From contig JAAERC010000890.1 in the NCBI GenBank assembly GCA_024230695.1, forward strand, positions 1 through 5,342: a DNA stretch of 5,342 bases, written 5' to 3'. The first letter of the stretch is position 1; each line of letters opens with the position of its first letter. Both the position numbers and the translations under genes were made by a program. The DNA comes from Candidatus Zixiibacteriota bacterium (lineage in GTDB: Bacteria; Zixibacteria; MSB-5A5; GN15; PGXB01). The notes under the pieces were generated by a model, which was given only the letters and a program-made list of their open reading frames with translations, was not told the DNA's origin and did no database searches. Positions 4,764 to 4,858 of this stretch are shown here, one piece after another.

Positions 4764-4844
4764 TTACTTGATAGCGAAAAACTCCCGCGTTTTATTGCAT
4801 GACTGTCAGTCGCCTCGGCAATAGAACCAATCAACCTTTGGCAT
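4764..4844 (-). pseudogene. ArsC/Spx-like (seleno)protein N-terminus with in-frame TGA, truncated
   Basis: The frame opens with ATG at 4842-4844 behind a perfect AGGAGG. It reads MPKVDWFYCRGD, then TGA (4806-4808), then QSCNKTREFFAIK and TAA (4764-4766).

If TGA encodes selenocysteine, the peptide has a U-x-x-C redox motif at 13-16. Its pattern, K-V-D-W-F/Y-Y-x-R-x-x-U/C-x-x-C-x-K-x-x-x-F, fits the start of ArsC/Spx/MgsR-type thioredoxin-fold (seleno)proteins as I remember them. Similarity runs across the TGA, which argues against a simple 12-residue peptide. Such proteins are over 100 residues; here the frame stops at 26, and no continuation appears in the other frames.

TGA is an ordinary stop elsewhere in the window (carbamoyltransferase and SxtJ genes), so recoding would have to be local. 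A truncated remnant is most likely. A genuine selenopeptide or a chance ORF are the alternatives. Confidence 0.5.
4778..4793 (-). promoter_or_regulatory. SECIS-like hairpin after the in-frame TGA
   Basis: On the minus strand AAAAC pairs with GTTTT around a GCGGGA loop. The loop starts 17 bases after the TGA at 4806-4808 and its first base is G. As I recall the bacterial SECIS rules, they ask for a loop about 16-37 bases past the UGA with a G in its first two positions, so this fits. The stem is only five AT-rich pairs, so it is weak by itself. Confidence 0.35.
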
Positions 4845-4852
4845 AGGTTATT

Positions 4853-4858
4853 CCTCCT
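4853..4858 (-). promoter_or_regulatory. Perfect Shine-Dalgarno site for the small TGA-containing ORF
   Basis: CCTCCT on the plus strand reads AGGAGG on the minus strand, exactly eight bases before the ATG at 4842-4844. It is the strongest ribosome binding site in the window, which is striking for a frame of 26 codons, and it is the main reason to take that frame seriously. Confidence 0.65.

Follow-up and report, generated by a model that had tools for sequence, protein, structure and literature searches.

A probable broken copy of an ArsC/Spx-like selenoprotein gene in uncultured Zixibacteria, with a putative deletion between short direct repeats

What does an open reading frame (ORF) of 26 residues represent when it starts behind a complete Shine-Dalgarno sequence, carries an in-frame TGA and then stops where the body of a protein should follow? 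The question was raised by one locus of the window, by which we mean the whole stretch of 5,342 nucleotides from a Candidatus Zixiibacteriota contig that was analysed. A preliminary description, made from the letters alone, located the feature at 4764..4858 and proposed either a decaying selenoprotein gene or an unusually short selenopeptide; the coordinates were right, and the strand, which it left unstated, is the minus strand. We put at about 80% the probability that the feature is an ArsC/Spx-like selenoprotein gene of uncultured Zixibacteria in a broken copy, in which the initiation signals, the UGA codon, a hairpin and the end of the gene have been kept. The ORF and its signals are:

4853..4858, minus strand: Shine-Dalgarno sequence AGGAGG, 8 nt before the ATG
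4764..4844, minus strand: residual ArsC-like selenoprotein ORF, 26 residues with selenocysteine (Sec), supported by ORF translation, the NF041106 profile, tblastn and alignment to relatives
4806..4808, minus strand: in-frame TGA, Sec position 13, UxxC motif

Read from 4844 to 4764, the peptide is MPKVDWFYCRGD-UGA-QSCNKTREFFAIK-stop, and the UGA is followed by QSC, so that reading it as Sec gives the UxxC-like motif that had been proposed. The good spacing claimed for AGGAGG (4858-4853, 8 nt to the ATG) holds as well, and AGGAG stands at the same place in the two closest relatives, L001 and L002. With Cys at the TGA, the 26-mer matches positions 1-21 of the 107 of NF041106 (ArsC family (seleno)protein; E 1.1e-4, 22.8 bits), the sole NCBIfam family that it matches up to E 10, and the ArsC-type context recognised at the outset is thus borne out. 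Because the peptide is so short, this score lies far below the curated cut-off of 85 bits and the family cut-off is not reached. SR1P was considered as an identity for the 26-mer and rejected, its Pfam match being weak (E 0.04); a plus-strand reading of 4740-4900, in one frame, gave a translation that does not contain such a peptide. Without Sec decoding the product of the stub is a 12-residue peptide, while a cell that decodes Sec would make a selenocysteine-containing product of at most 26 residues. A search of Rfam over the window returned three weak matches, far below gathering scores and none of them over the coding stretch, and a promoter and terminator scan gave 3 promoter sites against 1.8 expected, and no terminator.

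The stub has three neighbouring genes, of which the carbamoyltransferase led to the same locus in other genomes:

4955-5341, running off the window: OmpA-domain protein, neighbour of the stub
3697-4527: fibronectin-III/secretion-tail protein, neighbour of the stub
1743-3575: carbamoyltransferase (PF02543/PF16861)

A search with the carbamoyltransferase placed L001 (81% identity) and L002 (80%) at the top among the best 80 of 459 confirmed loci. Both are contigs of Candidatus Zixiibacteriota metagenome-assembled genomes (MAGs), here G001 and G002, and in both the secretion-tail and carbamoyltransferase genes that come after the stub stand downstream of a full-length gene. Among the matches listed, the window DNA matched the locus only in these two genomes, each with the full gene. 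Within the window, the stretch 1336-3575 holds the carbamoyltransferase and then a small SxtJ-like protein (PF19588, E 5e-7). On the other side of the selenoprotein gene, comparison of window 4845-4954 with L001:3-431 and L002:271-990 showed that the next gene upstream differs in all three, being the OmpA gene in the window, an open-ended ORF of 142 residues in L001 and an opposite-strand ORF of 239 residues in L002, which suggests that this region is a spot of frequent insertion and deletion. A palindrome, GGCGGTCAGATTAAATTTGACCGCC, lies between the OmpA gene and the stub at 4909-4933, and a 19-mer akin to its pattern, with 2 mismatches, stands at 25-43; allowing up to 3 mismatches, the pattern had 0 occurrences in 200 shuffles, and the palindrome is perhaps a terminator or a dispersed repeat.

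The full-length version that the preliminary description had advised looking for in sister genomes was found in both relatives at the same locus (L001:498-851 and L002:1101-1454), with 117 residues each and an in-frame UGA at the same position. Searched by tblastn, the stub finds the same frame through the TGA in both (E about 2e-11, 83% identity over 24 residues). The two proteins score 131 bits each against NF041106 (E 2.4e-38) and barely pass the Pfam ArsC family PF03960 (25.6 and 25.5 bits against 24). The ORF measures 81 nt in the window against 354 nt in the relatives, so that it is shorter by 273 nt, or 91 codons, and the parts that remain come from both ends of the gene: the first 57 nt are 86% (L001) and 84% (L002) identical to the relatives, and at the other end the final seven codons, with the stop and the 3′ flank, can be aligned to the C-terminal part of the full-length gene. 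The native gene end is therefore kept in the window, and the earlier statement that the rest of the protein is absent is right for the middle and wrong for these last codons, the stop and the flank. Since the start and the last codons are both retained, the loss is an internal, in-frame deletion. As for the missing middle, tblastn with the L001 protein against the entire window returned the stub and two chance matches only. Among the matches listed from 80 genomes of the order, with 4 candidates per genome, the deletion was seen in no other assembly. The marks left at the end of the gene are:

4706..4763, minus strand: 3′ flank, 58 nt after the stop, 66% (L001) and 71% (L002) identical
4779..4787, minus strand: deletion junction CGGGAGTTT, a direct repeat with two copies 273 bp apart in L001
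4774..4788, minus strand: SECIS-like hairpin with a 6-bp stem and a GUU loop, 23 nt after the UGA

The L001 gene has the nonamer CGGGAGTTT twice, at positions 58 and 331 and so at a distance of exactly 273, one copy within KTREFLAK and the other within REFFGIK-stop; in L002 the second copy is shortened to GGAGTTT, so that the exact repeat has 7 bp there against 9 bp in L001. The window has a single copy, preceded by the N-terminal context and followed by the C-terminal one, and its terminal codons read FAIK, against FGIK in L001 and L002 and FVIK in the metagenomic homologue P0003. The repeat alone is weak evidence because such repeats are not rare: in a codon-shuffle control, a repeat of at least 9 bp with copies at least 150 bp apart arose in 75 of 500 shuffles, and the L001 gene also has an 11-bp repeat. 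What counts is the placement of the repeat at both ends of the gap, as slippage or recombination between repeats predicts a copy at each gap end. The ancestral state would have been a full-length UGA gene upstream of the same genes, as in the relatives, and slippage or recombination between the direct repeats would have led to the 273-bp in-frame deletion. Searched against a protein database, the full-length L001 protein gave 20 hits, and three of these (P0002-P0004) are full-length metagenomic relatives with W at the Sec place in the source; because the length limits of this search exclude a 26-mer, it says nothing for or against other stubs.

In the phylum as a whole, NF041106 has some match in 32 of 132 genomes and a match above cut-off in 18 of them. 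All 18 genes above cut-off carry TGA at the Sec position and none carries Cys; in 16 there is one TGA inside the match, and in the remaining two (G007 and G125), whose contigs start at the site or just ahead of it, the TGA is visible in the sequence. Among the weaker matches are open-frame ArsC relatives that have no TGA. Five phylum genomes also hold short ArsC-like matches in which a TGA lies close to the start (L144-L148; YGKFT-U-TSC), apparently another Sec-containing ArsC-type group. With a profile of the N-terminal part, 37 of the same 132 genomes gave a match at E ≤0.1 and 18 a strong one (E < 1e-10); the strong matches are 16 genes above the family cut-off, a split gene in G080 and a stub in G077. 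As only these two damaged copies stand among the 18, short forms are rare in the phylum. The second stub is:

L118:1528-1671, minus strand: G077 stub, with start, UGA, hairpin and about 29 family-like residues

Unrelated codons follow its family-like part, and its stop overlaps the start of the next gene. In G080 the halves of the gene lie in two frames (L120/L110; contig C345:575-903), either by a real frameshift or by a sequence error. The selA gene is above cut-off in G077 and has a weak match only in G080, and both copies may contain sequence errors.

The passages of PMC13188914 on the bacterial SECIS model give a loop of 3-9 nt, a stem of 4-16 bp, a distance of 16-37 nt from the UGA, a G in the first two loop positions and an energy limit of -7.5 kcal/mol, and those of PMC4607533 describe a common apical hairpin of 5/6 bp shortly after the TGA in Epsilonproteobacteria. 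The window hairpin lies within the loop, stem, G-position and spacing limits given in the former. To follow it across the family, the 45 bases from the UGA were aligned in 21 sequences, namely the window, the 18 family genes and the two damaged copies. The hairpin of L001, with 7 pairs, was formed in 81.6% of cells, with a covariation score of 0.265 against 0.153 (sd 0.019) in shuffles, a value reached in 0 of 500, and six slid versions were lower in cells paired, both-side changes and covariation score. Two of the five covariation measures behaved like shuffles (44 of 500 and 137 of 500), with some slid versions tying there, RNAalifold, given the 21 sequences, favoured a weak helix other than this one, and the single-sequence folding z-score of the window was 0.43. 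The evidence from covariation thus appears good, though not unanimous.

The window still forms the inner six pairs, with one G-C turned into G-U, so that the stem has two G-U pairs against one in L001 and L002. Folded over 45 nt, the window reaches -4.6 kcal/mol against -9.4 (L001) and -8.4 (L002) and is the weakest of the 21; folded alone, the hairpin has -4.6 in the window and -7.3 kcal/mol in L002. The limit in those passages of PMC13188914 is thus missed by the window and reached by both relatives over 45 nt, but it is also missed there by three of the 18 intact or edge-cut genes (L139, L141 and L142), the hairpins of which, folded alone (-4.3, -3.5 and -3.5 kcal/mol), are weaker than that of the window. 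Because intact genes miss it too, the limit does not tell broken genes from intact ones here; compared with its nearest relatives the window hairpin is truly weakened, which is no proof that Sec decoding was lost. As the repeat sits inside the hairpin, the shape of the hairpin survived the deletion, and the incoming U may have turned one G-C pair of the stem into G-U: in L001 and L002 the C-terminal copy of the repeat also has the T behind the extra G-U, hence the deletion itself may have introduced it.

How long ago did the gene break? Comparison of the 19 codons at the head of the gene gave 6 synonymous and 2 non-synonymous changes between the window and either relative, and 6 and 0 between L001 and L002. 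One of the non-synonymous changes in the window replaces by Asp the Gly before Sec, which is present in 17 of the 19 rows of an alignment, the exceptions being the window and the G077 stub. This ratio gives no hint of a long period of neutral decay; on few sites, it suggests that most of the divergence arose under constraint and points to a recent deletion or to a stub that may still be constrained. Most likely, the break is recent.

What was lost can be judged from the full-length L001 protein, which, with Cys at the Sec place, was predicted to have a complete fold (mean pLDDT 92.6). The best PDB matches of this model are Spx structures (Foldseek E 5e-5), although with TM-scores of only about 0.54, and a PDB profile search also returned Spx first, together with unrelated weak chains. 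Compared with Spx/ArsC (PF03960, thioredoxin-like), the L001-type protein has Sec in place of the first Cys, and the window copy is without most of the fold. Most of the predicted elements fall in the deleted part; the stub retains the first strand and the UxxC, a portion of the first helix and, from the last helix, its tip. A complete thioredoxin-like domain is absent from it (81-nt ORF against 354 nt), and the fragment is not expected to fold as one. Whether or not Sec is decoded, the original redox protein is lost. Relative to NF041106, the stub shares the profile start, the place of Sec/UGA and the UxxC, but it lacks the 91 body codons, whereas its syntenic relatives are full members.

The claim that this lineage decodes Sec, at present or in the past, is sustained by both of the closest relatives, as selA, selC, selD and selB were all found in G001 and G002. 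Their tRNA-Sec genes score 72.6 and 71.9 bits (gathering score 47) and have the anticodon TCA; weak matches of this search were not counted because it also matches all 14 control genomes, 5 of them above cut-off. In both genomes selA is above cut-off, and so is selD, which carries its own in-frame TGA. The selB gene is complete in G002 (340 bits) and a fragment in G001 (profile 2-75, 119 bits), where it follows selA directly and stands at the end of contig C340; the remaining selB matches in G001 are below cut-off, one of them with 182 bits in a frame of 407 residues, and we take them to be other translation factors. A match to the family, Sec machinery in the relatives and, by tblastn and alignment, a frame conserved past the TGA, the three points on which the preliminary description had made its reading depend, were all found.

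Could the stub nevertheless be something other than a broken gene? A random short ORF that happens to resemble the start of a selenoprotein would fit its length, but this is refuted by the syntenic full-length homologues, with their 83% identity over 24 residues through the TGA, and by the match of its C-terminal end to the full-length gene. It is also conceivable, since the relatives carry the full gene, that the organism has it as well and that assembly or amplification made the contig skip 273 bp. We regard such an artefact as unlikely. The repeat is short, with exact copies of 9 bp in L001 and of 7 bp in L002, and in the ancestor of the window it is estimated at about 16 bp at most; repeats of about 16 bp or less are below usual assembly word lengths. 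Moreover, the neighbouring carbamoyltransferase and OmpA frames are open, which indicates a contig free of general damage.

The last rival accepts the deletion and differs in its outcome. The stub could be a functional selenopeptide of 26 residues, made and used with its UxxC pair, as the deletion is in frame and has left the Shine-Dalgarno sequence, start, UGA, hairpin and stop all in place. In its favour are the conserved head, with 6 synonymous and 2 non-synonymous changes in 19 codons, a 6-bp hairpin with a GUU loop at a distance within the limits in the passages of PMC13188914, the three of the 18 intact or edge-cut genes with hairpins that alone are weaker than -4.6 kcal/mol, and the second stub with UGA and hairpin in G077, a selA-bearing genome. 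Yet the hairpin is the weakest of the 21 over 45 nt and misses the -7.5 kcal/mol of that source, as three of the 18 do, the Gly before Sec, kept in 17 of 19 rows, has become Asp, most of the fold is gone, and the window is the single known example, the G077 stub being different in sequence and end. A functional peptide therefore seems quite improbable to us, and we hold it no more probable that the deletion created a Sec-translated 26-residue selenopeptide with a redox or regulatory role of its own, to which G077 would offer a parallel. Decay is better supported than a selenopeptide, and of the two possibilities originally raised it is the decaying gene with intact initiation signals that gains support, with an in-frame deletion between short direct repeats probably visible.

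ArsC-like selenoproteins are a known bacterial family in the passages of Zhang et al. 2006 (PMC1794560), and a UxxC arsenate reductase-like (ArsC-like) selenoprotein is listed in the table portion of PMC9312934. The passages of the 2006 survey describe the loss of this selenoprotein in sister organisms as a matter of gene content, deduced from whether the gene is present or absent. In the window, by contrast, one loss can be viewed at the sequence level with its remnant in place, through the putative deletion, the repeats and the spared UGA, hairpin and start. Zixibacteria are not among the phyla named in the passages of either paper, and in the passages of the literature on Zixibacteria and selenocysteine the mentions of the phylum concern genome lists; the present analysis documents in Zixibacteria both the Sec machinery and a covarying SECIS-like hairpin. 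The family itself is thus known, and the stub is a damaged member of it in which the breaking event is readable in the sequence. For gene finders this is a warning that a broken selenoprotein, and not noise, can lie behind a UGA stub.
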